Shown: positions 2,374 through 32,639 of the stretch, piece after piece
Numbering within the stretch: the first letter of the stretch is position 1
Layout of the letters: each line of letters opens with the position of its first letter
Assembly: GCA_021790935.1 (NCBI GenBank)
Contig: JAJYFL010000018.1
Location: 1-34,851, forward strand
Direction: 5' to 3'
Length of the DNA stretch: 34,851 nt
Source of the DNA: a bacterium
GTDB lineage: Bacteria > Vulcanimicrobiota > Vulcanimicrobiia > Vulcanimicrobiales > Vulcanimicrobiaceae
Notes under the pieces: model-generated
Database searches by the model: none
The model's input: only the letters and a program-made list of their open reading frames with translations
Told to the model about the DNA's origin: nothing
Made by a program: the position numbers and the translations under genes

Positions 2374-3110
2374 GCGGGTGGGTCGTAGCCGGCACGACGT
2401 TTCTCGCGTCCGGACTCGAATTCGTAGAGGCCGCGACGATCGTCATGGCGGTAGGCTACACGCAGGGCTGGCGCGCCGCTTTCGGCGGTGCGTTGTGGGC
2501 ACTCGCGGCACTGGCCGCTATCGTCCTCGCTTTCGGACCTGCGCTCGTGAAGTTCGTACCGCTCCCGCTGCTCAAAATCGTTATCGGCCTCTTCCTCGTT
2601 CTCTTCGGTTACACGTGGCTGCGCAAGGCGATCTGGCGCTTTGCGGGACGCAAAGCGACGCACGACGAGAACGCCATCTTCGCGCACGAAGTTGAGGAGC
2701 TGCGCTCCCAAGCGCACGAGCGCGACGCCCAAAAGGTCGGCTTCGTCACCGCATTCAACGGCGTCTTGCTGGAGGGCTTGGAGGTCGCCGTCATCGTCAT
2801 CACCTTCGCCGCCGTGCGACCCGACGCGATCGGATGGGGCGTCGGCGGCGCGGCGGTCGCGGCGGCACTGGTCGTGCTGGCCGCCTTTCTCCTGCGTAAA
2901 CCCTTCGCACGCGTACCGGAAAACGCCATGGGATTCATCGTCGGCACGATGCTGCTCTCGTTCGGTACGTTTTGGAGCGGCGATGGCCTCGGTATCGCGT
3001 GGTGGAACGGCGAGGCGACGCTCCTGTGGATCGTCGCCGCCTATCTCGCTGCCGCCGGTCTGCTCGTCGCCCTGCTTCGAGCGCCCCACGTGGCGGAGAC
3101 GCCATCGTGA
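2370..3110 (+). CDS. multi-pass membrane protein with a two-fold LExxE repeat (COG4280-like)
   Basis: 246 residues with about seven hydrophobic segments. Two related segments stand out: GLEFVEAATIVMAVG near the N-terminus and LEGLEVAVIVITFAA in the middle, each with a glutamate pair spaced LExxE inside a hydrophobic helix. This resembles the internal duplication and acidic motif of small cation transporters, and superficially the RExxE motif of FTR1 iron permeases, but it is not an FTR1 protein by length or overall pattern. It resembles the uncharacterised COG4280 membrane proteins. A charged loop between the halves (residues roughly 95-125) is predicted to be cytoplasmic. Starts at ATG 2370, overlapping the upstream stop, and ends in a GTGA overlap with the next gene. 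Confidence 0.65.
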   Translation: MSGWVVAGTTFLASGLEFVEAATIVMAVGYTQGWRAAFGGALWALAALAAIVLAFGPALVKFVPLPLLKIVIGLFLVLFGYTWLRKAIWRFAGRKATHDENAIFAHEVEELRSQAHERDAQKVGFVTAFNGVLLEGLEVAVIVITFAAVRPDAIGWGVGGAAVAAALVVLAAFLLRKPFARVPENAMGFIVGTMLLSFGTFWSGDGLGIAWWNGEATLLWIVAAYLAAAGLLVALLRAPHVAETPS

Positions 3111-3291: not shown

Positions 3292-5196
3292 ATGCGCGCC
3301 GTGAAACCATACGTTCGGCTTACGCATCCGCTGGTGCGGGATGGCGAGGGCTTGCGCCGCGCATCGTGGGACGAGGCGCTCGCTCGCGCCGCCGATGCGC
3401 TGCGCTCGGCGCGCGAGCGCGGCGCGACCGGAACCTATGGAATGTTCAGCTGCTCCAAGGCCACCAACGAGATGAATTACGTTGCCCAGAAATTCACGCG
3501 CTCCGTGATGGGCAGCAACAACGTCGACAGCTGCAACCGAACTTGACACGCTCCGAGCGTCGTCGGTCTGACGGCGGTCTTCGGCGCGGGCGGCGGGACG
3601 AGCTCCTACGAGGAGATCGAGAACACCGATACGATCGTACTCTGGGGATCCAACGCGCGCGAAACGCATCCGATATTCTTCCATCGCGTCCTTAAAGCGA
3701 TCCGAAAGGGCGCGAAGCTCTACGTCGTCGACCCGCGCCGCACGAGCAGCGCGCGATGGGCCGATCTGTGGCTGGCTCTGGACGTAGGTTCCGATATCGC
3801 GCTCGCGAACGCAGCCGGGCGCGAGATTCTCGCGGCCGGCCTAGAAAACCGCACCTTCATCGAGCGCGCCACGAGCGGCATCGAGGAGTACCGGGAGAGC
3901 GTGGAACCGTACACGCTCGCTCGTGCGCAACGGATCACCGGCGTGCCCGCCGAGACGATCCGCTCGTTCGCGCATGCCTACGCGCGGGCCGAACGGGCCG
4001 AGCTCTGCTGGACGCTCGGCATCACCGAGCACCACAACGCGGTCGATAACGTGCGGGCACTCATCAATCTAGCCCTGCTTACCGGACACGTCGGGCGCTA
4101 CGGTTCGGGGCTCTGCCCGCTGCGCGGTCAAAACAACGTCCAGGGCGGCGGCGACATGGGTGCGATTCCCGACAGGTACCCGAGCGGCCGGGAGGTCGTC
4201 GATCCGCGCGCGCGGGCGGCGTTCGAGCGAGCCTGGGGCGTACGCCTGCCTGCGGAGCGCGGCTGGAATCTCTCGAAGATGTTCGAGGCGATGGAGCGCG
4301 GCGATCTCGATACGCTCTACGTGATCGGTGAAAACCCCGCTCAGTCCGACCCAGACCAAGAACGCGTGCTGCGGCTCCTACGCGGCCTAAAATCTCTGAT
4401 CGTCCAGGATATCTTCCTTACGAAAACCGGCGAGCTCGCGGACGTCGTATTCCCGGCGACCGCATCCTGGTGCGAATCGGAGGGGACGGTCACCAACAGC
4501 GAGCGGCGCGTGCAGCGCGTGCGGAAAGCGCTCGAGCCGCCAGGCGAAGCGCGCGACGATATCGCCATACTCTGCGATCTGGCACGGCGCCTCGGCTGCT
4601 CCTGGCCGGCGCTCTCACCGCAAGAAGCGTGGAACGAATGCCGGAGCCTCTCCCCGTGGCACGCCGGCATGAGTTACGCGCGGCTCGAGGAGGCGGGCGG
4701 TCTGCAGTGGCCCTGCTACGACGAGCAGCATCCCGGCGAGCTCTACCTGCACGGCCGCCTTTGGGAGCGGCCCGTGCGCGGACCGCGCGCGCCGTTCAAG
4801 GGCGTCGCCCACGAACCGCCGGTCGAAGATCTCGACGAGCGTTTCCCGATTCGCTTGACCACCGGCCGGCGACTCGATTCGTTCAATACGGGCGTGCAGA
4901 GCAGCGGATACGCCTCGCCTTTGCGGCGCGGGGAGACGGTCGACGTCTCACCCGAAGACGCGCGCAGCTACGACCTGAGCGAGGGAGAGTTTGTGCGGCT
5001 GAGCTCGCGCCGCGGTTGCGTCGTCGCTCCGGTGCACGTCGATCCCGGTTTGAGAGCCGGCCTGGTCTTCATGACGTTCCATTTCAGCGACGACGTCTCC
5101 ACCAATCTGCTGACGATCGATGCGACCGACCCGCAGTCCGGCACGGCCGAGTTCAAAGCCGCGGCGGTGCGCATCGATAAAGTCGCAACGGTGTAG
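3292..5196 (+). CDS. fdhA: formate dehydrogenase catalytic subunit, selenocysteine-containing, lacking its N-terminal [4Fe-4S] domain
   Basis: Molybdopterin/tungstopterin-dependent oxidation of formate to CO2 (or the reverse). The frame runs from ATG 3292 to TAG 5196 through one in-frame TGA at 3544-3546. The flanking residues SCNRT-U-HAPSVVGL match the formate dehydrogenase active site (in E. coli FdhF, RV-U-HGPSVAGL), so TGA is read as Sec85. The conserved active-site His follows directly, and WGSNARETHP supplies the pterin-binding region. After it come the molybdopterin oxidoreductase body, PLRGQNNVQGGGDMG, and a C-terminal dinucleotide-binding domain (RLTTGRRLDSFNTGVQS). Total 634 residues. 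The usual N-terminal [4Fe-4S] domain (about 55 residues) is absent; the protein begins at the linker THPLVRDGEGLRRASWDEAL. The missing domain is at the end of the gene at 6987-7871. Reading TGA as a stop would leave an 84-residue stub and no start for the rest. First gene of a four-gene operon. Confidence 0.9.
3544..3584 (+). promoter_or_regulatory. UGA selenocysteine codon plus bacterial SECIS-like hairpin
   Basis: Directly after TGA 3544-3546 the coding sequence folds into a hairpin: upper stem CGTCGTC (3558-3564) with GACGGCG (3570-3576), including one G-U pair, around the loop GGTCT (3565-3569). A lower stem of CCGAG (3553-3557) pairs with TTCGG (3580-3584) across a small bulge. The E. 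coli fdhF SECIS also carries GGUCU in its apical loop, and by my count the loop sits 18 bases after UGA in both. Such hairpins recruit SelB with Sec-tRNA. The pairing is seen by eye; no folding energy was computed. Confidence 0.8.
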
Positions 5197-5208
5197 GTGA
5201 AGGGCGCG

Positions 5209-6987
5209 ATGGACATCCATTACACGGCGGCTGTCGCAACGCCGATCGAACGCGCGGCGGTCGATGCCGCGTTGGGCGCACGCGAAAACGCACGCGACCT
5301 GCTGCTTCCCGCGCTACACGCGATCCAAGATCGCGTCGGCTGGATCGGTGAAGGCGCCCTCAACTATCTCTGCCAGCGCCTCTGCATTCCGCCTGCGGAA
5401 GCATACGGCGTCGCTACGTTCTACGCCCATCTCTCGACCACGCGGCAGCCGCCGGTAGTCGTCCGCGCGTGCGACGACATCGCGTGCCTGGCCAACGGAG
5501 CCGATGCCGTATGTGCGGAGTTGGAGCGCGCATTCGGAGCGCCGGGAACGCCGTCTGCGAACGGCCGCGTTACGTGGCGGCGCAGCCCGTGCTTGGGATT
5601 GTGCGATCGGGCGCCGGCGGTGCTGCTTACCCAAGCCGGCGAACTTCCCGAGCGGTACGCGCTCGCACCGGCTACGCCGCAGGATGCGGTGGCCGCAGCG
5701 CGCGGGGCCGTTCCGCAGAGAGAGTCGCTGCCGCATATCGGCGGGGTGCCCTCGCGGCTACTGCGCCGCGTCGGCCGGGTCGATCCGGAGAGTTTGGACG
5801 ACTACCGCGCGAGCGGCGGTTACCTCGCGCTCCGGCGCGCGATCGAACTCGGTGCCGAAGGCGTGCTCCGCGAGATATCGGCATCGAATCTCCTCGGGCG
5901 TGGCGGTGCGGCTTTCCCAACCGGCCGAAAGATGGAAGCGGTGGCCCACGCGGCCGCGCGGCCGCACTACGTCGCGTGCAACGCGGACGAATCGGAGCCC
6001 GGGACGTTCAAGGACCGCGTGCTGCTGGAGCACGATCCGTTCGCCGTGCTGGAGGCGCTGACGATCGCCGCCTATGCGACCGGTTGCGAACGCGGTTACA
6101 TCTACGTGCGGGGAGAGTATCCGCTCGCGCTGCGCCGTATGCAAAACGCTGCCGATCGGGCGCGCGAACGCGGTCTGCTCGGCGGCAACGTCATGGGCAA
6201 AGGCTTTCGTTTCGACATCGAACTGCGGCGTGGCGCCGGTGCGTATATCTGCGGCGAAGAGACCGCACTCTTCAATTCGATCGAAGGCAAGCGTGGAGAA
6301 CCGCGCAACAAACCGCCGTTCCCGGCGCAGGCCGGACTCTTCGGAAAGCCGACGCTCGTGAACAACGTCGAAACGCTCGCGTGCCTGCCGCACGTGCTGC
6401 TCGAAGGCGGCGACGTTTTCGCCGCGACCGGTACGCCGGGGTCGAGCGGACCGAAGCTCTTTTGCGTCTCCGGCACCGTCGAGCGGCCGGGACTCTACGA
6501 GATGCCTTTCGGCACCACGCTCGGGGAACTCGTTGCGGCGGCAGGCGGCATGCGCGGCGGCCATAAAGCTCGCGCGATCCTCCTGGGCGGCGCGGCCGGC
6601 TCGTTCGTCGACCCGGAAGCCCTCGACCTCCCGCTAACCTTTGAAGGCGCACGGGCGGCGGGCGCCACGATCGGCTCGGGCGCCGTCGTGGTCTTCGACG
6701 AGACGATCGACTTGGTTCGCATTCTGCGCCGTATCGCCGAATTTTTTCGCGAAGAGTCGTGCGGCCAGTGCGTACCGTGCCGCGTCGGAACGGTCCGCCA
6801 AGAGGAGGCGCTCGCGCGGCTCGCGAGCGGTAGCGGCACGAACGGTTGCGCGGCCGATGCCGCGCTCCTCGACGAGATCGCGCGAGCGATGCGCGATGCC
6901 TCGATATGCGGGCTTGGACAGACCGCCGCAAACGCGATCCAATCCGCGCTCACCCTACACCTGCTCGCTAATGGACCGAACCCATAA
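5209..6987 (+). CDS. fdhB: formate dehydrogenase NAD-binding subunit, NuoE-NuoF fusion
   Basis: 592 residues from ATG 5209; the GTG at 5197 directly after the upstream stop is possible but lacks a good ribosome site, while GTGAAGG precedes the ATG. Residues 1-155 form a thioredoxin-like [2Fe-2S] NuoE domain with C88, C93, C128 and C132 (C-x4-C, C-x3-C). The rest is NuoF-like: the FMN/NAD region GRGGAAFPTGRKMEA and NADESEPGTFKDR, then RRGAGAYICGEETAL, and a C-terminal [4Fe-4S] site with C518, C521, C524 and C567. It passes electrons between the iron-sulfur chain and NAD(H), as in soluble NAD-dependent formate dehydrogenases and complex I. Separate NuoE and NuoF are usual; fusions occur in formate dehydrogenase and hydrogenase operons. 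It follows the catalytic gene by 12 bases and overlaps the next gene (TAATG). Confidence 0.92.
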   Translation: MDIHYTAAVATPIERAAVDAALGARENARDLLLPALHAIQDRVGWIGEGALNYLCQRLCIPPAEAYGVATFYAHLSTTRQPPVVVRACDDIACLANGADAVCAELERAFGAPGTPSANGRVTWRRSPCLGLCDRAPAVLLTQAGELPERYALAPATPQDAVAAARGAVPQRESLPHIGGVPSRLLRRVGRVDPESLDDYRASGGYLALRRAIELGAEGVLREISASNLLGRGGAAFPTGRKMEAVAHAAARPHYVACNADESEPGTFKDRVLLEHDPFAVLEALTIAAYATGCERGYIYVRGEYPLALRRMQNAADRARERGLLGGNVMGKGFRFDIELRRGAGAYICGEETALFNSIEGKRGEPRNKPPFPAQAGLFGKPTLVNNVETLACLPHVLLEGGDVFAATGTPGSSGPKLFCVSGTVERPGLYEMPFGTTLGELVAAAGGMRGGHKARAILLGGAAGSFVDPEALDLPLTFEGARAAGATIGSGAVVVFDETIDLVRILRRIAEFFREESCGQCVPCRVGTVRQEEALARLASGSGTNGCAADAALLDEIARAMRDASICGLGQTAANAIQSALTLHLLANGPNP

Positions 6988-7871
6988 TGAGCGAGTTTCA
7001 CCCACTCTCCGCCGCCAGCCCAACCCGCACCATCGAACTGACGATCGACGATCGCCCCGTGCGCGTACCCGAAGGCGCGACGCTGCTCGAAGCCTGCAGC
7101 GGCGCGGGCATCGAGACGCCGACGCTCTGTTATCTCAGCTCGCTTACGCCCGCCAACGCATGCCGCCTTTGCGTCGTCGAACTCGAGGGCTCGCGCGCGC
7201 TCGTTCCGGCGTGTTCGCGGACCGCCGAGGAGGCGATGGTCGTGCACACCGATAGCGAGCGCGTGCGCCACAGCCGTAAGATGGTACTGGAGTTTCTCGC
7301 TTCGGCGGTCGATCTCGCCGTCGCCCCGGATCTCGCCGGATATATGGAACGTTACGGTGCCGACGCGGGACGCTACGGCGCGTCGGCTCGTACGGCCGCG
7401 CAGCCGGTAAGAATCGACAACGGGCTCTACGTTCGCGATTACTCGAAGTGCGTTCTCTGCTACAGGTGCGTCGAGGCCTGCGGAACCGACGCCCAAAACA
7501 CCTTTGCCATCGCAGTCGCCGGCCGCGGATTCGGCACCGGTATCGCAACCGAGTTTGAGGTGCCGCTTCCGGACTCGGCATGCGTCTACTGCGGCAATTG
7601 CATCGGCGTCTGCCCGACCGGTGCGCTGATGTTTTCGTCGGAGTACGAAATGCGCCGGGACGGCACGTGGAATGCGAGATCTCAAACGCAGACCGACACG
7701 ATCTGTTCGTACTGCGGTGTCGGATGCACGCTGACGCTGCACGTACAGGAAAACCGCATCGTCAAGGTAACCTCGCCGGCCGATAGAGGCGTTGCGGATG
7801 GTTCCTTGTGCGTAAAGGGTCGCTTCGGCAGCGCGTACGTTCAGCGCCGCGAAGACGATCCGGTGCGTTGA
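6987..7871 (+). CDS. formate dehydrogenase iron-sulfur subunit (ferredoxin-like, includes the detached [4Fe-4S] domain of the catalytic subunit)
   Basis: 294 residues. In order: a NuoG-like [2Fe-2S] ferredoxin domain (C48, C59, C62, C76); a segment where a His-Cys [4Fe-4S] site normally sits but no cysteine remains (SRKMVLEFLASAVDLAVAPD); a two-cluster ferredoxin domain (C155, C158, C161, C165 and C199, C202, C205, C209); and a C-terminal molybdopterin oxidoreductase [4Fe-4S] domain (C240, C243, C247, C275; CSYCGVGC and LCVKGRFG). That last domain is normally the N-terminus of the formate dehydrogenase catalytic chain. The protein stops just after KGRFGSAYVQRREDDPVR, at the linker where the product of 3292-5196 begins. 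The two polypeptides together therefore make one conventional FdhA, with the C-terminal part encoded first. It is expected to wire the active site to the NuoEF fusion. Confidence 0.9.
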   Translation: MSEFHPLSAASPTRTIELTIDDRPVRVPEGATLLEACSGAGIETPTLCYLSSLTPANACRLCVVELEGSRALVPACSRTAEEAMVVHTDSERVRHSRKMVLEFLASAVDLAVAPDLAGYMERYGADAGRYGASARTAAQPVRIDNGLYVRDYSKCVLCYRCVEACGTDAQNTFAIAVAGRGFGTGIATEFEVPLPDSACVYCGNCIGVCPTGALMFSSEYEMRRDGTWNARSQTQTDTICSYCGVGCTLTLHVQENRIVKVTSPADRGVADGSLCVKGRFGSAYVQRREDDPVR

Positions 7872-8752
7872 TGCGCCTGGACGAGCGGCCCGGGACCGCG
7901 ACTTCGGTACCCATCGTCGCGTACGATGGCACCGTCGCGCGGCGAACGACCGACGACGTCGCGACCGAAGAACCGCTGGAGATTCGCGTGACCGCGGGAG
8001 GAGAGACGCGCAGTCTTGCTATGACGATGCGAACGCCCGGCAACGACTTCGAACTAGCGGTGGGCTTTCTCTATGCCGAAGGCGTCGTCCGTTCGCTCGA
8101 CGACGTGCGCGAGATATCCTACTGCCTCGATCCCGAGGTCGATCCGGTACAACGCTACAACGTCGTGAACGTCGCGCTCGCGTTTAGGGAGCTGCCCCGC
8201 ATGCAGCCTCTGGAGCGGCACTTTACGATGAACAGCGCGTGCGGCGTCTGCGGCAAGGCAACGATCGATGCGCTTCGAACGGGCCGCGCGCCGCTGGACG
8301 ACGGGTTCGAGATCGAGCTCGAAGCGATCCTCGCAATGCCAGAACGTATGCGATCGGCCCAGCGCGTCTTCGCGAGCACCGGAGGATTGCACGCCGTGAC
8401 GCTCTTCGATCGCTGCGGCGACCTCGTGGCGGTGCGCGAGGACGTCGGCCGCCACAACGCCTTCGACAAGATCGTCGGATGGGGGCTGATGGAAAGGCGC
8501 TTGCCGTTCTCCGATTGTGCCGCACTAGTCAGCGGGCGCGCGAGCTACGAGTTGGTGCAGAAAAGCGTGGCCGCAGGTATCTGCGTGCTTTCGGCAGTCT
8601 CCGCGCCCAGCAGTTTGGCCATAGCGCTAGCTCGCGAATTCAACGTGACGCTGGTCGGCTTCGTGCGCGGTTCGCGCTGCAACGTCTACAGCGCGCCCGC
8701 CCGCGTCAAACCGGCGGGGACCCGATCAGAAACGAGCGCAGAAGAGCGTTAA
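7871..8752 (+). CDS. fdhD: formate dehydrogenase accessory sulfurtransferase FdhD
   Basis: 293 residues from ATG 7871, which overlaps the upstream stop (TGATG). FdhD transfers sulfur from a cysteine desulfurase to the molybdenum/tungsten cofactor and is needed for formate dehydrogenase activity. The family features are clear: EEPLEIRV near the N-terminus, MRTPGNDFELAVGFLYAEG, the redox CxxC in NSACGVCGKA (C124, C127), and REDVGRHNAFDKIVGW. It is the last gene of the formate dehydrogenase operon, and its end overlaps the convergent hydrolase gene by 47 bases. Confidence 0.95.
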   Translation: MRLDERPGTATSVPIVAYDGTVARRTTDDVATEEPLEIRVTAGGETRSLAMTMRTPGNDFELAVGFLYAEGVVRSLDDVREISYCLDPEVDPVQRYNVVNVALAFRELPRMQPLERHFTMNSACGVCGKATIDALRTGRAPLDDGFEIELEAILAMPERMRSAQRVFASTGGLHAVTLFDRCGDLVAVREDVGRHNAFDKIVGWGLMERRLPFSDCAALVSGRASYELVQKSVAAGICVLSAVSAPSSLAIALAREFNVTLVGFVRGSRCNVYSAPARVKPAGTRSETSAEER

Positions 8753-18090: not shown

Positions 18091-18690
18091 TTGCCGGGTT
18101 ACGATCTGCGCCTGCAGGCGGCGCTCGATGCCGCGGAATCGGTCTTCGCAGAGAAGAGTTACGGGCTGGCGACGATGCGCGACATCGCCGCCGCCGCGAA
18201 CCTAAGCGTCGCCGGCCTCTATTATTATCTACCGAGCAAGCAGCGTGCGCTCGGAATGGTCTGCGGGCGGGCCTTCCAGGCGCTCTCGGAGGGACTGGAG
18301 CGAGCCCTTTCGGAGGCGGCGCCACCCGATTCGCAGCTGCGCGCCTTCGTGCGCCATCACGTCGGTTTCATCACCGTTAGCCCGGCTGCGTACCGCGTGC
18401 TGCTCCACGATATGGAGGCGCTGGAAGGCGAGGACCGCGTCGCCGTGCATGAGATTCGCCGCCGCTACTTCGCGCGCGCCGCCGATCTGGTGATTGCGGT
18501 GCAGCAGCAGCGCACCTCGTCGATATCCACGCGAATCGCGACGGCGGCGCTCTTCGGCATGATGAACTGGACGCCGATGTGGTACCGCGGCGAAAACGAA
18601 TCGGATGCTTCGCACGTGGCGCTCGAGATGTCGACGCTCTTTCTGCGCGGGGTCGCGGCACCCGCCGAAGAACCGGCGGCGATCGCATGA
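18091..18690 (+). CDS. TetR/AcrR family transcriptional regulator
   Basis: 199 residues from TTG 18091, chosen because GGGAGGG sits just upstream. The N-terminal helix-turn-helix is typical: LDAAESVFAEKSYGLATMRD followed by IAAAANLSVAGLYYYLPSKQ. The C-terminal region (VGFITVSPAAYRVLLHDMEA, then EIRRRYFARAADLVIAVQQQ) resembles the ligand-binding domain of acyl-CoA-responsive regulators in the FadR/PaaR group. Its ATGA overlap with dch makes it the first gene of the benzoyl-CoA operon. A CoA-thioester effector (benzoyl-CoA or a ring-cleavage product) is the natural guess from position and operator type. Confidence 0.88.
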   Translation: MPGYDLRLQAALDAAESVFAEKSYGLATMRDIAAAANLSVAGLYYYLPSKQRALGMVCGRAFQALSEGLERALSEAAPPDSQLRAFVRHHVGFITVSPAAYRVLLHDMEALEGEDRVAVHEIRRRYFARAADLVIAVQQQRTSSISTRIATAALFGMMNWTPMWYRGENESDASHVALEMSTLFLRGVAAPAEEPAAIA

Positions 18691-19442
18691 GCGAGCGCAT
18701 CGAAGTCGGGCGCGAGGGCCGCATCGGCCGCATCACGCTGCGTTGCGGCCCGCTCAACGTACTCGGGACGCAGGACGTGCGCGACCTGCACGCCGCCGTC
18801 GGCGAACTCGCCGATTGCGCGATCGTGCTGCTCGGCGCTGCGGGCCAGCGAGCGTTTTCGGCAGGCATGGAGATCGCGGATCACACGCCTGCGGCGGCGC
18901 CTGCGATGCTGGCGGCCTTCGGCGAGATGGCCGCCGCCTTCGCCGCGACGCCGTCGGTTCTCGTCGCGAACGTGGGGGCTGCGGCGATGGGCGGCGGTTT
19001 CGAGATCGTCCTGCTCTGCGACCTCGCGATCTGTTCGGATGCGGCTTCGTTCGCGTTGCCCGAGATCAAACTCGCCGCGCTGCCGCCGGTGGCATGCGCT
19101 CTCCTTCCGCACATCGTCGGCCGGCAGCGAGCGCTGGACCTGATTCTGACCGGCCGCCGCATAGACGCCGCCGAAGCCGAGCGCCTTGGGATCGTGACGC
19201 GCTGCGTTCCGCACGACGATCTGGAGTCCGCCGTCGCGAATCTCTGCGCGCAACTCTCCGCGCTCTCGGAAGACGCTCTGCGCGCGTGCAAACGCGCTAC
19301 GGTTGGCGGCGATCTTCGCGAAGCGCTGCGCCTCTACACCGGCGAGCTCTTGCAGACGCGCGACGCCGCCGAGGGCATCGCGGCCTTTCTCGAACGCCGT
19401 CCACCGCAATGGTCTCACCACAACGAGGAGATTCCCACGTGA
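18687..19442 (+). CDS. dch: cyclohexa-1,5-diene-1-carbonyl-CoA hydratase (Dch-like)
   Basis: 251 residues of the crotonase family. It would add water to the dienoyl-CoA made by benzoyl-CoA reductase, giving 6-hydroxycyclohex-1-ene-1-carbonyl-CoA. Support: AFSAGMEIADHTP at the acyl-CoA oxyanion site (Thauera Dch has FSFGASVDEHMP as I recall it), GGGFEIVLLCDLAICSDAAS, ALPEIKLAALPPVACALLP, and the C-terminus TRDAAEGIAAFLERRPPQW, close to the Dch ending. The usual catalytic Glu pair of enoyl-CoA hydratases is not obvious, as in Dch. Gene order and the neighbouring had and bcr genes back the call. Start ATG 18687 overlaps the TetR stop; the oah start GTG overlaps its own stop. Confidence 0.82.
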   Translation: MSERIEVGREGRIGRITLRCGPLNVLGTQDVRDLHAAVGELADCAIVLLGAAGQRAFSAGMEIADHTPAAAPAMLAAFGEMAAAFAATPSVLVANVGAAAMGGGFEIVLLCDLAICSDAASFALPEIKLAALPPVACALLPHIVGRQRALDLILTGRRIDAAEAERLGIVTRCVPHDDLESAVANLCAQLSALSEDALRACKRATVGGDLREALRLYTGELLQTRDAAEGIAAFLERRPPQWSHHNEEIPT

Positions 19443-20272
19443 CGCAACCCGAAGCCCCACCCACCGCGACCGACGACGTCCTCTACGAAACGAACGACCG
19501 CGTCGCCACGATCACGCTCAACCGCCCGCAGGCCTACAACGCCTACACGACCGAAACGCTAGGGCGTCTCCACGCCGCACTGCGCCGGGCGATGTGGGAC
19601 GACGAGGTAGGCGTCGTCGTCCTCACCGGCGCGGGGCGCAAGGCGTTCTGCACCGGCGGCGACGTCAAAGAGTACGCCGAGCGCTACGTGAAGCGGCCCG
19701 ACGATTTCTGGAAGTACATGGTGCTCTTCGCCGATTGCCTCGATGCGATTCGCGGCATGGGCAAGCCCACGATCGCGCGCTTGAACGGGATGACGGTCGG
19801 CGGCGGTAACGAGATGAACATGGCCTGCGATCTCGCCGTGGCGGCCGATCACGTCACCATTCGGCAAGTCGGCGCCAAGGTCGGCAGCGTCGCGGCGGGC
19901 GGCGCTACGCAATGGCTGCCGATCATAATCGGCGACCGGCGCGCGCGCGAAATGCTCTATCTGTGCGAGCCGATTACGGCGCAGCAGGCGCTGGATTGGG
20001 GGCTGGTCAATCGCGTCGTGCCGTTCGACGAACTCGACGCGACCGTGCGCGAGTTGTGCGATAAACTGCTCGACAAGTTCCCGAGCTGCCTGAGCTACAC
20101 GCAGTGTCAGGTGAACTACTGGAAAGACCAGGCGTGGTACTCCACGATCGGCCACGCGCGCGAGTGGTTGACGATGCACTTCGGCCACCCCGAGACCGCC
20201 GAGGGAATGCAGGCGTTCGTCGAAAAACGCGCTCCCGATTACGCCGGTATCCGCAAGCGGAAAACGCGATGA
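19439..20272 (+). CDS. oah: 6-oxocyclohex-1-ene-1-carbonyl-CoA hydrolase-like, short form
   Basis: 277 residues of the crotonase family, start GTG 19439 behind GAGGAG. It would hydrate and hydrolytically open the ring ketone to a C7 dicarboxyl-CoA. Oah-like features: YNAYTTETLGRLHAALRRA, AFCTGGDVKEYAERY, KPTIARLNGMTVGGGNEMNM and KVGSVAAGGATQWLP, comparable with Thauera Oah KHGSAAIGGATDFLP as I remember it. Oah is about 370 residues because of an insert before its C-terminal helices; that insert is absent here. The length and ending (ETAEGMQAFVEKRAPDY) look more like BadI/MenB, but the MenB/BadI Asp in the GSVDPG motif is Ala here, as in Oah. I prefer Oah; BadI-like 2-ketocyclohexane-carboxyl-CoA hydrolase is the alternative. 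Confidence 0.75.
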   Translation: MTQPEAPPTATDDVLYETNDRVATITLNRPQAYNAYTTETLGRLHAALRRAMWDDEVGVVVLTGAGRKAFCTGGDVKEYAERYVKRPDDFWKYMVLFADCLDAIRGMGKPTIARLNGMTVGGGNEMNMACDLAVAADHVTIRQVGAKVGSVAAGGATQWLPIIIGDRRAREMLYLCEPITAQQALDWGLVNRVVPFDELDATVRELCDKLLDKFPSCLSYTQCQVNYWKDQAWYSTIGHAREWLTMHFGHPETAEGMQAFVEKRAPDYAGIRKRKTR

Positions 20273-21297
20273 AGGCGGCGGTTTTCTACGGCGCGCATCG
20301 CCCGCTCGAGATCGAAGAACGGCCCATCCCCGTGCCGGGAGCGGGTGAGGTGCTCGTACGCGTTGCGGCCTGCGGCTTGTGCCACACCGACCTGCACTAC
20401 ATCGATCACGACGTGCCGACGTTCCACAAGCCGCCGCTGGTGCTCGGGCACGAAGCCTCGGGGACCGTCGCGCGCGTCGGTTCCGGCGTCGAGCGCTGGA
20501 GCAAAGGGGACCGCATCCTCATTCCGGCGCTGCTGACCTGCGGATCGTGCGGCGCGTGCCGGCGCGGGCGTGAAAACATCTGCGAGCGCGGCATCATGCC
20601 CGGCAATCACATAGACGGCGCGTACGCAGAGTACGTCTGCGTGCCGGCCAAGGATACGCTGGCGCTGCCCGACGATCTCCCGCTGGAAGAGGCGTGCCTG
20701 ATCGCCGACGCCGTCTCGACGCCGTTCCACGCGGTCGTGAACCGCGGCGAAGTTCGCCCCGGCGATCGCGTCGTGGTGTACGGCTGCGGTGGGGTCGGCG
20801 TTAACGTCGTGCAGATCGCCGCCGCGTCCGGAGCCGATGTCTGGGCGGTCGACGTGCGGCCGGAGCGCCTCGAACACGCCGCGCGCTTCGGTGCGGGGCA
20901 CCTCGTCGACGCATCCGCCACGAGCGAGGTGGCCAAGGCGATCCGGCGCGAGACGGGCGGCGGTGCCGACGTTGCCTTCGAGGCCATCGGCAACCCGGCG
21001 ACCATGCGCCAGGCGTTCGATAGTCTCCATCGCGGCGGACGGCTCGTCGTCGTCGGTTACTCGGAGCACGACCTCACGCTTTCGGCGGCTAAGATCATGT
21101 TCAACGAGATGGAGGTGCGCGGCTCGCTCGGCTGCCGCCCGGTCGACTATCCGCGCATCATCGAGATGGCGCGGCGCGGCACCATCGCGGTGAAGCCGCT
21201 AGTGACCGGACGATTCTCGCTCGACGACATCAACGCAGGCCTCGACGCGCTTCGCGCCGGTCAAGGCCTGCGAAACATCGTCGTGCCGGCGGCATAG
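20269..21297 (+). CDS. had: 6-hydroxycyclohex-1-ene-1-carbonyl-CoA dehydrogenase (zinc MDR)
   Basis: 342 residues of the medium-chain alcohol dehydrogenase family. It would oxidise the hydroxyl group formed by Dch with NAD+. Catalytic zinc ligands C38, H61 and E62 (ACGLCHTD, VLGHEASGTV), structural zinc C91, C94, C97 and C105, and Rossmann motif VYGCGGVGVNVVQIAAASGA are all present. The stretch DVPTFHKPPLVLGHE and IMPGN after the structural zinc loop resemble Thauera Had. Without context it would be called a generic alcohol dehydrogenase; position between oah and bcr genes makes Had the best call. It overlaps oah by ATGA. Confidence 0.85.
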   Translation: MKAAVFYGAHRPLEIEERPIPVPGAGEVLVRVAACGLCHTDLHYIDHDVPTFHKPPLVLGHEASGTVARVGSGVERWSKGDRILIPALLTCGSCGACRRGRENICERGIMPGNHIDGAYAEYVCVPAKDTLALPDDLPLEEACLIADAVSTPFHAVVNRGEVRPGDRVVVYGCGGVGVNVVQIAAASGADVWAVDVRPERLEHAARFGAGHLVDASATSEVAKAIRRETGGGADVAFEAIGNPATMRQAFDSLHRGGRLVVVGYSEHDLTLSAAKIMFNEMEVRGSLGCRPVDYPRIIEMARRGTIAVKPLVTGRFSLDDINAGLDALRAGQGLRNIVVPAA

Positions 21298-21307
21298 GAG
21301 GACGCGC

Positions 21308-22480
21308 GTGAACATCGAGGTCATCAACCGATTCGACGAACTCATCGACGAATGCATCGAAACCTTCGAGTCTCTCGACTTTCCCGAAGCGCGCGCATGG
21401 AAGAGCGCCGAGCCGGGCCGCGCCCTGATCGGATGCTTCCCCGTCTACGCACCGGTCGAGATTTTTCACGCCGCCGGTGCGCTGCCGGTCGGGTTGGCCG
21501 GCGCCGGGAACCGGCTCGAAATCTCTCACGCGGACGCACGCTTCCAGTCGTTCGTGTGTTCCATCATCAAAAGCACGCTCGAACTCGGCATGGTGGGCAA
21601 ACTCGACGATTTCGATGGGTTGGTCTTCCATTCGATCTGCGATCCGGCCCGCAATTTGGCGAGCGTATTCACGCGTAATTTCCCAAACACGCGCGTCGAG
21701 TACGTTCACTTCCCACAACGCCTCCATTCGGAAGAGGCGGTGACCTATCTCGAGCGCGAGTACCGGCGAATCCTCGACTGGGCTACGGCGACGACCGGGC
21801 GCAGCGTAACCGACGAAGAACTGCGGCGCAGCATCGCGCTCTACAACGCGATACGCACCGGCATCCGCTGGCTCTACGATTTCCGGCGCGCCGAGCCGCA
21901 CAAACTTTCGACGCGCGAGCTGTACGCGCTGGTACGGTACGGCCACGTAGCGCCGCCGGAAAAGCATCTCCGCTTGCTCACGCACGCGTTCGACGAGCTG
22001 CAGCGGCGCGAGGGCAAGCCGAAAGACCGCGCGCGCATACTGCTCGTCGGCTCCTTCTGCGAGCAGCCTCCGCTGGACCTGATCGCTTCTATCGAAAGTG
22101 CCGGATGCTACGTCGTCGACGACGACTTCCTGCTGGGGCGCCGGTTCTTCTCGGCCGACGTCGCCGACTCGCGCAACCCGCTCCGCGACCTGGCCGACGC
22201 ATACGTGAACCACAGCGTAGACTCGAGCGTCAAACACGATCTCGGTCACTCTAAAGCGGAAGCGCTGGTGGCGCGCGCCCGCGCGTACGATGCCGACGCG
22301 GTCGTCGTGCTTACCGCGAAGTTTTGCGAGCCCGCGCTCTTCGACTACGCGCTCTATCGCAAGGCGTTCCACGAGGCCGGCATGCCCCACGTTTTTCTCG
22401 AATTCGAAGAGAAGATGTGGCTCTTCGACAAGGTCAAGACCGAGATCGAGACCTTCGTCGAATCGCTGCTCTTCACATAG
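21308..22480 (+). CDS. bcrC: benzoyl-CoA reductase subunit C (HgdB-like)
   Basis: 390 residues, close to BcrC/BzdN length. The protein belongs to the 2-hydroxyglutaryl-CoA dehydratase D-component/benzoyl-CoA reductase family and with BcrB forms the substrate-reducing module that binds benzoyl-CoA and [4Fe-4S] clusters. Visible: IGCFPVYAPVEIFHAAGALP at the N-terminus, cysteines in FVCSIIKSTLELG, FHSICDPARNLASVF and LVGSFCEQPPLDLI, and VLTAKFCEPALFDYALY near the end, all typical of the family. ATG 21308 follows AGGAGG (21296-21301). Order bcrC-B-A-D is that of Thauera and Azoarcus clusters. Confidence 0.93.
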   Translation: MNIEVINRFDELIDECIETFESLDFPEARAWKSAEPGRALIGCFPVYAPVEIFHAAGALPVGLAGAGNRLEISHADARFQSFVCSIIKSTLELGMVGKLDDFDGLVFHSICDPARNLASVFTRNFPNTRVEYVHFPQRLHSEEAVTYLEREYRRILDWATATTGRSVTDEELRRSIALYNAIRTGIRWLYDFRRAEPHKLSTRELYALVRYGHVAPPEKHLRLLTHAFDELQRREGKPKDRARILLVGSFCEQPPLDLIASIESAGCYVVDDDFLLGRRFFSADVADSRNPLRDLADAYVNHSVDSSVKHDLGHSKAEALVARARAYDADAVVVLTAKFCEPALFDYALYRKAFHEAGMPHVFLEFEEKMWLFDKVKTEIETFVESLLFT

Positions 22481-22491
22481 GAGGCGCTATC

Positions 22492-23757
22492 ATGGCGGAA
22501 ACGGCGTACCAAGGCCGACTGCACTTGCTGCAAAAAGATCTGATGTCGCAGTATTACGGCGAACTGACCGCGTCCGCCGAAGGCAGCGGCGTCCCGGCCG
22601 CCTACCTTCTGATCGGCGGCAACCCCGTAGAACTGCTTCGCGCGCTCGATATCCTTCCCGTCTATCCCGAAGTCAACGCGCTGCAGCTCGCCGTCAAGAA
22701 ACAATCGCTCGCCCACATTCAGGCCGCCGAAGGCATGGGTTACTCGACCGACAACTGCGCGTACGTAAAAGCGGATATCGGGCTGTATTTTGCGGGCCGC
22801 AAGACGCCGTTCGCAACCATCCCGGAGCCATCGCTGCTGCTGTGCAACTACGTCGGCTGCAACGTCTACCTTCACTGGTTCGACCATTTGGCCGAGTATA
22901 CCAAACGCCCGACCTTTCATCTCGACATTCCGTTCATCCGCAACGCCAGCGGACGGCCGTCCTCCGACGACATGGCTTACGTCCTGCGCCAGCTCGAGCA
23001 GTTGGTAGCGGTGTGCGAGGAGATCGCCGGAAAGAGACTCGACCCGCAGAGATTGCGCCGGGTCGTCGAACTTTCTTCACAGACCGGCCGCCTGTGGTCC
23101 GAGATCAAACACCTGACGAAGTCCGCGCCGGCTCCGTACGACGCATATTTCGATTCGGTCACGATGATGGCGCCGCTGTACTGCCTGCGCGGCACCGAGG
23201 AAGGACTGACGTTCTTCCAAACCGCCCGCGACGAATACGCGCAGATGGCGGCCGACGGCAAGGGCCCGCTCGAGCGCGAGGATTTTCGGTTCGTCATCGA
23301 AGGTCCGCCTCCGTGGCCGTACTTGCGCGTATTCCGCGACATGTTCGCCCGCTGGAACGCCGTGGCGGTGGCATCGACCTATTCCACCGTCGGAGGCCTA
23401 TGGGAGTTCGGCTTCGCGCACGACCCCGACCACCCGATGGAGAGCATCGCCGAACATTTGCTAACCTGGAATCTGACCAACCGCAACTTCTTACAGCGGT
23501 ACGATCAGATCGACCGCTACCTCAAGGAGTGGAACGCCGATGCGCTCGTTATCCATTCCGTCAAGAGCTGCCGTCTCTTCTCCGCAGGGCAGGGGGACAT
23601 GCGCGACTACTTCACGCAGCGCGGCGTCCCAACGCTGCTGGTCGAATCCGATCTCGAAGATCCGCGGTATTTTTCCGAGGCGCAGATGCGCACCCGCATC
23701 GACGCGTTTTTTGAATCGCTCGCTCACCGCAAGCTGACCGCTGCGGCGGGCGCCTAG
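22492..23757 (+). CDS. bcrB: benzoyl-CoA reductase subunit B (HgdB-like)
   Basis: 421 residues; the second subunit of the substrate-reducing module. Cysteine-bearing family motifs: [40 protein letters not shown], and [20 protein letters not shown] followed by a variant of the [20 protein letters not shown] motif that is diagnostic of BcrB/HgdB proteins. ATG 22492 follows AGGAGG (22479-22484). It lies 11 bases after bcrC and 10 bases before the first activator gene. Confidence 0.93.
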
Positions 23758-23767
23758 GAGTACGAAC

Positions 23768-24568
23768 GTGGCATATGCAGCCGGAGTCGACGTCGGCTCG
23801 ACGCAAACCAAGTGCGTGGTTCTCGACGAGGAACGCCGAATCGTGGCGCGCGCGCTGACCGATACGGGAGCCAACGTCACGCGCGCAGCGCAGCGCGCTT
23901 TCGACGAGGCGATCGCATCGGCGGGCATGCAGAGGTCGGATATCGTCTGCGTCGTCGGCACGGGATACGGCCGGTTCAAAGTTACCTTCGGCGATTTTCA
24001 GATCACCGAGATCAGCTGCCACGCCAAGGGTGCGTGTTCGGTGTTTCCGGGCACGCGTACCGTCATCGACATGGGCGGCCAGGACGCCAAAGGGATCAAA
24101 GTTCTCGACGGCGAGGTTCTCGATTTCGTGATGAACGACAAGTGCGCTGCCGGTACCGGGCGCTTCTTGGCGACCGCCGCCGAGGTCCTCGCCGTGCCCC
24201 TGGACGCCATCGGCGCCCTCGCGCTGCAGGCGCGCAATCCCGTACGCCTATCGACGGTGTGCACCGTCTTCGTCGAGTCCGACATCATGGCGTACTTGGC
24301 GCAAGGCAAGAAAGTTCCGGACATCCTGGGCGGCATCCACAGCGCGATCGCGGCTCGCACCGTCGCCCTGGTGCGGCGCGTAGGTCTGGAGCCCGAGATC
24401 ACCTTCACCGGCGGCGTTTCGCTGAACGTCGGGATGGTACGCGCGCTCGAAGATAAACTCGGGCTTCACCTCAACGTCTGCGAGGACTCGCATTACATGG
24501 GCGCGATCGGGGCCGCCGCCTTCGCTCTGGAACGCGGGCTCGCGCATTCTACCGGAAACGTCGCGTAA
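23768..24568 (+). CDS. bcrA: benzoyl-CoA reductase ATPase/activase subunit A (BcrA/BzdQ-like)
   Basis: 266 residues of the ASKHA ATPase family (BadF/BadG/BcrA/BcrD/HgdC). It hydrolyses ATP to push a low-potential electron from ferredoxin to the BcrBC module. Visible: [17 protein letters not shown] (ATP phosphate 1), [23 protein letters not shown] (phosphate 2) and the bridging [4Fe-4S] ligands C126 in [12 protein letters not shown] and C165 in [11 protein letters not shown], at the same spacing as HgdC (127/166). Thauera BcrA is about 440 residues; this protein is short, like the Azoarcus BzdP/BzdQ type. Which of the two activator genes is alpha or delta is not certain. Confidence 0.88.
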
Positions 24569-24578
24569 GGGGACCGTC

Positions 24579-25370
24579 ATGACTTTAATTGCAGGCATAG
24601 ATATCGGATCGCGCGGGACGAAGATCGCGCTGATCGACCGGGGCGGGAAACTGCGCGGATGGCATATCGCGCGAACCAAGCCGCCGTTCGAAGAGACGGT
24701 CGAAGCGGCGCTCGCGGCCGCACTCGCTACCGTCGGCGCTTCGCGCGGAGACGTCGGCTATCTCATCACGACGGGCTTCGGGCGCTCGAGCTATCCCGAA
24801 CGCGATACCCAGGTCACCGACATCAGCGCGGGTGCGTTCGGAGCGACGGCGATGTTTCCAAAGACGCGCTGCGTGATCGACATCGGATCGCAGAGTTCGC
24901 GTGCGATTCACGTGGACGAGATCGGACGGGTCAAGGAGTTCAAGTCGAACGACAAGTGCGCGGCCGGAGCCGGCGGTTTCGTCGAACGCGCGGCGCGCTA
25001 CATCGAGACGACGCTCGAGGAAGTCGGAGAACTCTCCCTCGCAGGCGAAGACCCGGTGACGATCTCGAGCGTCTGCGCGGTGCTCGCGGAATCGGAGATC
25101 ATCAACCACGTGAGCCAGGGTCGCAGCGTCGAGGACATCCTGCGCGGGGTTCACAATTCGCTCGCCGAACGGGCAATCGCGCTGCTCAAGCGCGTCGGCA
25201 TCGAACCCGAGGTCACGCTGGTCGGCGGAATGGCTCGCCAGCGCGGGATGGTTCGAGCGCTATCCGAGATGCTTCAAATGCCCATCAACATTCCCGAAAC
25301 CCCGGAGATCGTCAACGCCTTAGGCGCGGCGCTGCTCGCAAAACGGCGGCTGGAGCGCGTAGCGGCATGA
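24579..25370 (+). CDS. bcrD: benzoyl-CoA reductase ATPase/activase subunit D (BcrD/BzdP-like)
   Basis: 263 residues, a paralogue of the preceding gene. AGIDIGSRGTKIALIDRGGK, TTGFGRSSYPER, VIDIGSQSSRAIHV and [4Fe-4S] ligands C127 (NDKCAAGAGGFVER) and C166 (SSVCAVLAESEI) show an intact ATPase with a cluster shared between the two activator chains. The second phosphate motif has IGSQSSR where the partner has MGGQDAK. It forms the heterodimeric electron activator with subunit A. Its stop overlaps the hemerythrin start (ATGA). Confidence 0.88.
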   Translation: MTLIAGIDIGSRGTKIALIDRGGKLRGWHIARTKPPFEETVEAALAAALATVGASRGDVGYLITTGFGRSSYPERDTQVTDISAGAFGATAMFPKTRCVIDIGSQSSRAIHVDEIGRVKEFKSNDKCAAGAGGFVERAARYIETTLEEVGELSLAGEDPVTISSVCAVLAESEIINHVSQGRSVEDILRGVHNSLAERAIALLKRVGIEPEVTLVGGMARQRGMVRALSEMLQMPINIPETPEIVNALGAALLAKRRLERVAA

Positions 25371-30984: not shown

Positions 30985-31027
30985 CCGGCCGGCTAAGCGA
31001 TCTGCCCGCGCCGCCGCGCGTTTTTCG

Positions 31028-31036
31028 TGCTATGCT
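31028..31036 (+). promoter_or_regulatory. possible extended -10 element upstream of the first phaB
   Basis: TGCTATGCT at 31028-31036 fits an extended -10 (TGn followed by a TATAAT-like hexamer). No good -35 is seen 17 bases upstream. CGTGCT (31026-31031) and AGCACG (31045-31050) form an inverted repeat around the box, a possible repressor site. Confidence 0.35.
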
Positions 31037-31092
31037 GCCAAGACAGCACGAGTCCAAGCAGCATGGCTGCTTTCGAGAGCTGGAGGCTTAGG

Positions 31093-31833
31093 TTGTTCGA
31101 ACGACGGGTGGCCATCGTCACCGGCGGTACGCGCGGCATCGGCGCCGCGATTACGACCATGCTCGTGCGCAACGGCGCGCACGTCGCCGCGGGCTACAGC
31201 AAGGGGCGCGAATCGGCCGAGCGGCTGCAGCAAGAACTCGCTGCGGAGGGGGCGAGCCTCTCGATTCACCAAGGCAGGGTCGACGTCGCCGCGGACTGCG
31301 AGCGCGTGGTCGGCGAAGTACTGGCGCTCACCGGCCGGGTCGATTTTTTGATCAACAATGCCGGCATCACGGTTGACAAGACCGTCCGAAAAATGACGCA
31401 CGAGGATTGGCAAAACGTACTCGCCGTCAATCTTCACGGCGCGTTCTACATGAGCAAAGCCGTCCTCGAACATATGATCGCGCGTGGCTCTGGCCGCATC
31501 GTCCATATCAGCTCGGTAATCGGCGAGACCGGCAACGTCGGCCAGGCGAACTACGCCGCATCCAAATCCGGGCTCTTCGGCTTCTCCAAGAGTCTGGCTC
31601 TGGAGATGGCTCATCGGGGCATCACCGTAAACTGCGTGGCGCCCGGCTTCATCGCCACCGAGATGGTCGCCGCGATACCGGAAGCCGCACTCAATAAGGT
31701 GATCGAGAAGATTCCGCTGGGCCGCCTCGGCAAGCCCGAGGAGGTCGCTCGCGTGGTCTGCTTCCTACTCCAAGACGACTCGAGCTATATCACGGGCGCA
31801 GTCTTTCACGTCAACGGCGGGCTCGATATGTGA
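31093..31833 (+). CDS. phaB: acetoacetyl-CoA reductase (PhaB-like), copy 1
   Basis: 246 residues. It reduces acetoacetyl-CoA to (R)-3-hydroxybutyryl-CoA for polyester synthesis. Rossmann motif RVAIVTGGTRGIGAAITTML, FLINNAGITVDKTVRKMTHE (the last part typical of PhaB), catalytic region ISSVIGETGNVGQANYAASK and ending ITGAVFHVNGGLDM. TTG 31093 is preferred because GGAGG lies at 31082-31086; ATG 31063 is in frame 10 residues upstream and is the alternative. It precedes a paralogue by 50 bases. FabG (3-oxoacyl-ACP reductase) is the related alternative, but the GQANY and VRKM motifs and the nearby PHA synthase favour PhaB. Confidence 0.85.
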   Translation: MFERRVAIVTGGTRGIGAAITTMLVRNGAHVAAGYSKGRESAERLQQELAAEGASLSIHQGRVDVAADCERVVGEVLALTGRVDFLINNAGITVDKTVRKMTHEDWQNVLAVNLHGAFYMSKAVLEHMIARGSGRIVHISSVIGETGNVGQANYAASKSGLFGFSKSLALEMAHRGITVNCVAPGFIATEMVAAIPEAALNKVIEKIPLGRLGKPEEVARVVCFLLQDDSSYITGAVFHVNGGLDM

Positions 31834-31860
31834 GTCGAATACGCATAAAAGGACACCGCG

Positions 31861-31886
31861 CATGCGCTAGGTAAACCTAGCGCATG
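31861..31886 (+). promoter_or_regulatory. perfect 12-bp inverted repeat covering the start codon of the second phaB
   Basis: The arms CATGCGCTAGGT (31861-31872) and ACCTAGCGCATG (31875-31886) are perfect inverse complements with a 2-base spacer. The right arm ends with the phaB2 start codon. In RNA an 8-bp stem GCGCUAGG/CCUAGCGC with loop UAAA could form, extendable to 11 bp over the AUG. The only good ribosome site, AAAAGGA (31847-31853), lies on the far side of the palindrome. It may be a translational control hairpin, a DNA operator, or both. Confidence 0.65.
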
Positions 31887-32639
31887 ACTATATCCACACT
31901 CAGCGGGCGCGTCGGCATCGTAACCGGCGGCGCTCGCGGCATCGGCGCTGCCGTCAGCCGCCTCCTCGCCCGAGACGGCGCAACCGTTGCGGTGCTCGGT
32001 CTGCCGGCCGACCGCGAGCGCACGCAAGCGCTGCGCGCTACGCTGAACGGCCAGGCGTCGAGGGTGCATTTCTACGAAGGGAACGTCGGCGAGTACGATC
32101 GCTGCAGACTCGCCGTCGACGCGATTCTTCGCGAACACGGACGGATCGATTTCCTGGTAAACAACGCAGGCATAACGGCAGATCACACCGTGCGCAAGAT
32201 GACGGTCGACGAATGGCAAGCGGTTCTGCAGGTCAACCTGTCGGGACCCTTCTTCATGACCAAGGCGGTACTCGATCACATGATCGAGCGCGGATACGGT
32301 CGCATCGTGAACATCAGCTCCGTCGTCGCTCTCTCGGGTAACGTCGGGCAGGCCAACTACGCCGCCGCCAAAGCCGGCCTCTTGGGCCTGACCAAAACGG
32401 TCGCGCTCGAGACGGCAAACAGGGGCATCACGGTTAATGCCGTCGCGCCTGGTTTCATCAACACGGAGATGGTCGCGGCGATGCCGTCGGCGGCCATCGA
32501 AGCGGCGATCGCGCGAACGCCCGAGCGCCGATTGGGGAAGCCCGATGAGATCGCCCGCACCGTACGCTTCTTGATCGACGACGATAGCGGCTATATCACC
32601 GGAGCGGTATTCAACATTAACGGAGGCATGTACATGTGA
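31884..32639 (+). CDS. phaB: acetoacetyl-CoA reductase (PhaB-like), copy 2
   Basis: 251 residues, paralogous to the preceding gene over its full length: RVGIVTGGARGIGAAVSRLL, FLVNNAGITADHTVRKMTVD, ISSVVALSGNVGQANYAAAK and ITGAVFNINGGMYM. Conserved Ser, Tyr and Lys are present. The N-terminus begins at ATG 31884, the right arm of a palindrome. Its stop overlaps the start of the PHA synthase gene. Having two PhaB-type enzymes suggests different substrate or cofactor preference, or dosage; that cannot be read from sequence. The coenzyme motif after the second strand (VLGLPADRERTQ) lacks the clear GYSKGR of copy 1, so cofactor preference may differ. Confidence 0.85.
   Translation: MTISTLSGRVGIVTGGARGIGAAVSRLLARDGATVAVLGLPADRERTQALRATLNGQASRVHFYEGNVGEYDRCRLAVDAILREHGRIDFLVNNAGITADHTVRKMTVDEWQAVLQVNLSGPFFMTKAVLDHMIERGYGRIVNISSVVALSGNVGQANYAAAKAGLLGLTKTVALETANRGITVNAVAPGFINTEMVAAMPSAAIEAAIARTPERRLGKPDEIARTVRFLIDDDSGYITGAVFNINGGMYM

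Follow-up and report, generated by a model that had tools for sequence, protein, structure and literature searches.

Metal-dependent formate dehydrogenases oxidize formate at a Mo/W-Sec site and pass the electrons via a proximal [4Fe-4S] cluster and an Fe-S relay to FMN and NAD+. The catalytic residues of their alpha subunit are a Sec/Cys-His pair and the Arg region PLRGQNN. Sec-FdhA represents the most widespread bacterial selenoprotein family, and UGA is read as selenocysteine (Sec) in many bacteria; the Sec part of the finding reported here is therefore ordinary. The alpha subunits of NAD-linked formate dehydrogenases (6tg9_A, 9wxb_B, 7e5z_A) are single chains of ~960–1000 aa with NuoE/F partners. 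Formate dehydrogenase H of E. coli (FdhF, 1aa6) carries Sec followed by His at its active site and has its [4Fe-4S] domain in the same chain, and the bSECIS element of the E. coli fdhF transcript displays a GGUCU loop 18 nt after the UGA codon.

The DNA stretch analyzed here, called the window, comprises 34,851 nt from a genome of 2.65 Mb (98.8% complete) belonging to the Eremiobacterota/Vulcanimicrobiota lineage. Its plus strand harbors at positions 3292–5196 a gene, designated fdhA-C, for the catalytic Mo/W-bisMGD part of a formate dehydrogenase alpha subunit, as judged from its translation and from Pfam and NCBIfam matches. The reading frame extends from ATG 3292 (alternatively GTG 3301) to the TAG codon at 5194–5196 and contains an in-frame TGA at 3544–3546, corresponding to residue 85; most relatives offer a start codon 81–84 codons 5' of the TGA. 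The first-pass annotation had placed this TGA at the Sec/Cys position of a formate dehydrogenase (SCNRT-U-HAPSVVGL) and described the homology as unbroken in the same frame. Indeed, FdhA homology was found on both sides of the TGA, and the NCBIfam profile TIGR01591 (Fdh-alpha) yielded a single unbroken match of 634 bits spanning it. Pfam Molybdopterin matched residues 39–462 (E = 2.8e-68), and Molydop_binding was matched as well. As also foreseen, the standard ORF list contained only the 3' part of the gene, from GTG 3901 to 5196 (431 aa). Alignment to 7qv7 and 7bkb revealed that the Sec/Cys-His pair (U-H) and the Arg region (CPLRGQNNVQGGGDMG) both reside in fdhA-C, and the U-H-A-P sequence encoded at 3544–3555 matches the UHxP motif listed for Sec-FdhA (PMC13188914).

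The initial assignment of 3292–5196 to a formate dehydrogenase holds for the catalytic domain; it had overlooked, however, that the N-terminal Fe-S part is encoded elsewhere. FdhA-C starts only after the Mo-proximal [4Fe-4S] domain, and this domain together with the Fe-S relay is the product of a separate gene, fdhA-N (6987–7871, plus strand), with [2Fe-2S] Fer2_4, Fer4 and Molybdop_Fe4S4 domains, the latter ending in LCVKGRFGSAYVQRREDDPVR. Comparison with the solved structures led to the same picture. Residues 39–662 of fdhA-C are homologous to the catalytic domain of E. coli FdhF, the match starting at residue 61 of 1aa6, whose [4Fe-4S] domain precedes it in the same chain. The best solved sequence match, FdhF of the hydrogen-dependent CO2 reductase (7qv7_S, 486 bits), is likewise aligned from residue 56 of a longer chain. 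The single chain 6tg9_A is tiled by fdhA-N (24–305) and fdhA-C (307–931), and TIGR01591 is covered by fdhA-N at positions 1–51 (45 bits) and by fdhA-C at positions 48–672. On its own, fdhA-C remains below the single-chain cut-off of this profile (666.25 bits). As the two products jointly span the whole profile, we classed them as a split variant rather than as a single-chain FdhA.

Between the two alpha parts lies a gene for a NuoE-NuoF fusion, the NADH/FMN diaphorase part (5197–6987, plus strand), with a thioredoxin-like [2Fe-2S] domain, FMN/NAD-binding regions and a 4Fe-4S domain. Thus, the NuoE-like and NuoF-like FMN/NAD parts that an NAD-linked formate dehydrogenase complex requires are present, and fdhA-N and fdhA-C combined provide the full domain set of the NAD-linked alpha subunits, distributed over two genes instead of one. 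Downstream of fdhA-N follows fdhD (7871–8752, plus strand), encoding the formate dehydrogenase accessory sulfurtransferase, whose ATG at 7871 overlaps the fdhA-N stop codon. The genes abut or overlap by one base, which is consistent with a single operon. FdhA-N retains a CVKGRFG segment. According to PMC12176258, a Lys located close to the Mo cofactor and a [4Fe-4S] cluster is highly conserved in Mo-dependent formate dehydrogenases; the Lys of CVKGRFG presumably corresponds to this residue. In one relative (L129), fdhA-N seemed to be extended by 700 aa, but this proved to be an artefact, as the frame stops after ...FTNTRRD. Taken as a whole, the locus reads as encoding an NAD-linked selenoenzyme with a split alpha subunit, and we put the probability of this interpretation of the sequence at about 95%.

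If the TGA is translated as Sec, the genome should contain the corresponding machinery, and the absence of selA, selB, selC and selD had been set beforehand as speaking against this reading. All four were found. The selA gene (C16:53589–54911, 522 bits) is located directly before selB on the same contig (C16:54935 onward; 281 bits, or 308 bits with the rest of the frame). The tRNA-Sec gene (C8:9746–9835, 71 bits) has the anticodon TCA, and selD (C33:302209–303135, minus strand, 379 bits; L018, G000) carries an in-frame TGA of its own. The context of the latter, AYSSCAG-U-ASK, fits the UxxK motif listed for Sec-SelD (PMC13188914), which makes SelD a second probable selenoprotein of the same genome. 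Among the phylum genomes with the TGA-containing gene, 33 of 35 possessed selA; since selA occurs in 121 of all 149 phylum genomes, this proportion agrees with the Sec reading but does not strongly prove it. Relatives found through a scan of GTDB representatives gave a similar result, with selA above the cut-off in 45 of 47 genomes. It went undetected in two genomes of the phylum, G049 (63% complete) and G053 (91%), and in two of the 47 elsewhere; a few such cases are expected because the genomes are drafts.

The first-pass annotation had also pointed to a hairpin with a GGTCT loop 18 nt after the TGA, and this loop was located at 3565–3569. It caps a predicted bSECIS stem-loop (3558–3576, plus strand), in which 3558–3564 pairs with 3570–3576 to form 7 bp, with a folding energy of –9.2 kcal/mol for the 19-nt stem-loop. 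The bSECIS consensus comprises an apical loop of 3–9 nt on an upper stem of 4–16 bp, G at loop positions 1 and 2, a UGA-to-loop distance of 16–37 nt and a minimum free energy of –7.5 kcal/mol or lower (PMC13188914). With a 5-nt loop, a 6–7 bp stem, GG at the loop start, a spacing of 18 nt and –9.2 kcal/mol, the hairpin lies within all four published criteria. Loop and spacing equal those of E. coli fdhF, whereas the stem differs in sequence and lacks the bulged U.

We compared relatives with 60–96% identity, collected from 149 genomes of the phylum and from the scan of GTDB representatives. The loop starts with GG in all 97 distinct sequences of the split clade, and six stem pairs (offsets 15–20 with 26–31) are intact in every one of them. 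Codon usage is correspondingly constrained: codon +5 is GTC in 97/97 (background, 45%), codon +8 is CTG in 97/97 (background, 39%), and codon +7 is GGT in 95/97, a triplet that makes up 10.7% of the Gly codons in these genes. Codons +6 (GTC for Val or GCC for Ala) and +9 (ACG for Thr or GCG for Ala) covary. The combinations GTC/ACG, GCC/GCG and GTC/GCG were observed 31, 47 and 19 times, respectively, and GCC/ACG, the sole combination that breaks a pair, did not occur among the 97 sequences. This Val/Ala and Thr/Ala pair clearly illustrates how an RNA element can limit the choice of amino acids within a coding region.

After randomization of synonymous codons, on average 20 of the 97 sequences still formed the full six-pair stem (maximum 31, 200 trials), as compared to 97 observed. 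In an alignment of 42 sequences, neither the covariation score nor the share of paired cells was reached by any of 500 column shuffles, which related sequences beat more readily than independent ones. Hairpin registers slid along the alignment scored lower on both measures, and RNAalifold recovered the same six pairs. Five other TGA-containing homologues possess the loop and 6–7 of the 7 pairs, whereas only one of 18 Cys-type homologues has the GGTCT loop, most of them retaining 2–3 of 7 pairs. We conclude that the hairpin is under selection at the RNA level. It is the comparative evidence that establishes it, since the fold of a longer stretch of the single sequence was not striking (z = –0.72 and –0.21, not significant). 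The minimum-energy fold also contained a longer lower stem, which we discarded, as relatives do not preserve its pairs. Rfam gave no match in the window at the gathering threshold, although for a hairpin as short as a bSECIS this result is not decisive. Separately, we observed a Cys-type FdhA gene (L164; G124:C211:4820–6646) in which a TGA replaces a Cys that is conserved in homologues (DH*TRLC versus DHCTRLC) and lies four residues N-terminal to the active-site Cys; this reflects an error or a mutation.

Two explanations of the in-frame TGA do without Sec. A former TGC or TGT codon might have become a broken stop through base-calling error or decay into a pseudogene, for which one base change would suffice, and the locus stems from a draft genome. 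The codon is TGA, however, at 97 of 97 distinct orthologous sites of the split clade, drawn from independent assemblies and including genomes of the same genus; a Cys codon (TGC/TGT) was present at none of them. These assemblies thereby speak indirectly against TGC at 3544, the second finding that the first-pass annotation had named as refuting the Sec reading. This uniformity excludes a sequencing error or a fresh pseudogene. Moreover, fdhA-C shares 74–77% identity with its counterparts in other genera, in most of which the TGA is the sole internal stop, and the RNA hairpin is conserved; we regard the probability of such a defect as negligible. A TGA within a functional gene would also be expected if UGA had been reassigned as a general sense codon in this organism. 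Yet TGA terminates fdhA-N at 7869–7871, where the relatives end too, as well as a membrane gene at 3108–3110, and no in-frame TGA was seen in other genes among those of the window that were examined. In fdhA-C and selD, the TGA falls exactly on the Sec motif, and selABCD are present. Code reassignment is thus extremely improbable as well. Decoding of the fdhA-C UGA as Sec, the interpretation initially proposed, is strongly supported as a prediction by the Sec machinery, the invariant TGA and the covarying, bSECIS-like hairpin.

Other alternatives concern the enzyme rather than the codon. FdhA-C might act alone, like a short FdhF, with fdhA-N belonging to a different NADH-linked enzyme; the similarity of fdhA-N to the Fe-S subunits HoxU and NuoG and to those of hydrogenases would fit this idea. 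FdhA-N contains, however, precisely the FdhA Molybdop_Fe4S4 domain that is missing from fdhA-C, and both genes co-occur in fixed order in relatives, so that we consider independent function very unlikely. It is also conceivable that the enzyme serves mainly as a CO2 reductase or uses an acceptor other than NAD in vivo. Formate dehydrogenase chemistry is reversible, and the closest solved match of fdhA-C is a subunit of a hydrogen-dependent CO2 reductase. Here, the operon contains a NuoE-NuoF diaphorase fusion instead, and we noticed no hydrogenase gene next to it; a primarily CO2-reducing or non-NAD enzyme therefore appears unlikely.

For the NAD-linked enzyme with split alpha, we infer the following course from the genes. 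FdhA-C would provide the catalytic chain of a Mo/W formate dehydrogenase that is probably located in the cytoplasm. SelB with Sec-tRNA(Sec) would bind the GGUCU hairpin 18 nt downstream of the UGA and bring Sec to the ribosome, and the inserted Sec would ligate Mo/W beside the conserved His. FdhD, encoded in the same operon, may act in sulfuration of the cofactor. In the assembled complex, fdhA-C would carry the bisMGD/Sec site and fdhA-N the Mo-proximal [4Fe-4S] domain plus the Fe-S relay. Electrons from formate would move from Mo-Sec across the subunit interface to the [4Fe-4S] cluster and then through the relay and the NuoE-NuoF fusion to NAD+, so that electrons leaving the active site would first pass between two gene products.

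The split layout, less usual than the Sec part of the finding, is shared by relatives in many phyla of soil bacteria. The TGA gene also occurs in a cultured carrier, Aquisphaera insulae JC669 (strain record L121). Where the retrieved DNA of a relative contained all three genes, a script counted the strict order catalytic part, NuoEF, Fe-S part in 69 of 76 cases. Among the seven exceptions, L147 is an unsplit outgroup. The other six fail the strict test because, by inspection, the NuoEF match begins either at the stop codon of the catalytic gene or a few bases ahead of it, and we take their gene order to be unchanged. In most loci, an in-frame stop ~82–170 codons upstream of the TGA leaves no room for an Fe-S domain in that frame. 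The Sec-FdhA genes of two phylum genomes, L147 and L149, share the TGA, the GGUCU loop and the stem but are 44% identical to fdhA-C, and L147 has a longer open frame (911 aa) that accommodates the Fe-S part immediately upstream. In some Chloroflexota loci (L073, L076, L103, L104, L124, L129), an additional 0.8–3.9 kb separates fdhA-C from NuoEF, which in L124 includes a 1136-aa ORF resembling, by eye, a secreted multidomain protein.

In the gene tree, the split clade was separated from two outgroup sequences with a support of 100, and fdhA-C grouped with eight Eremiobacterota records, also with 100. Members of the split clade bear the names of nine phyla. These labels form clusters on the tree, but several of them require more than a single change. 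Horizontal transfer of the genes is possible, a reading that is limited by binning errors and submitter titles. We lean towards the view that the clade represents a widespread, undescribed Sec-FDH subtype of Eremiobacterota, Acidobacteriota, Chloroflexota, Planctomycetota, Actinomycetota and others, with alpha split at the [4Fe-4S]/Mo-cofactor boundary, the permuted order catalytic part, NuoEF, Fe-S part, and an electron that would leave Mo-Sec across a subunit interface. No description of a split Sec-FdhA or of an Eremiobacterota formate dehydrogenase was found in open-licence PMC papers, and an earlier description is possible. The plasmid collection contained no relative above 60% identity and hence no annotated close relative.

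Because standard gene callers cut fdhA-C at the TGA, annotations of soil phyla known mainly from metagenomes may understate both formate oxidation and the use of selenium. The split would amount to a natural two-piece FdhA, whose Mo-Sec module and first electron acceptor could be made, matured and exchanged separately, a property useful for enzymology and for the engineering of CO2 reduction.

Elsewhere in the window, we noted genes resembling subunits C and B of class I benzoyl-CoA reductase (21308–22480 and 22324–23757), two activase-type subunits (23768–24568 and 24579–25370) and a 6-hydroxycyclohexenecarbonyl-CoA dehydrogenase-like gene (20263–21297). With the exception of the activase domain, the equivalog cut-offs were not reached in this region (20263–25370), which possibly encodes an anaerobic aromatic or 2-hydroxyacyl-CoA pathway. 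An enoyl-CoA hydratase family member encoded close to these genes (18684–19442) matches cyclohexa-1,5-dienecarbonyl-CoA hydratase. Finally, a class I-like poly(R)-hydroxyalkanoate synthase gene (32636–34393; 578 bits versus a cut-off of 623) is preceded by two ORFs (31027–32639) that look, by eye, like short-chain dehydrogenases.
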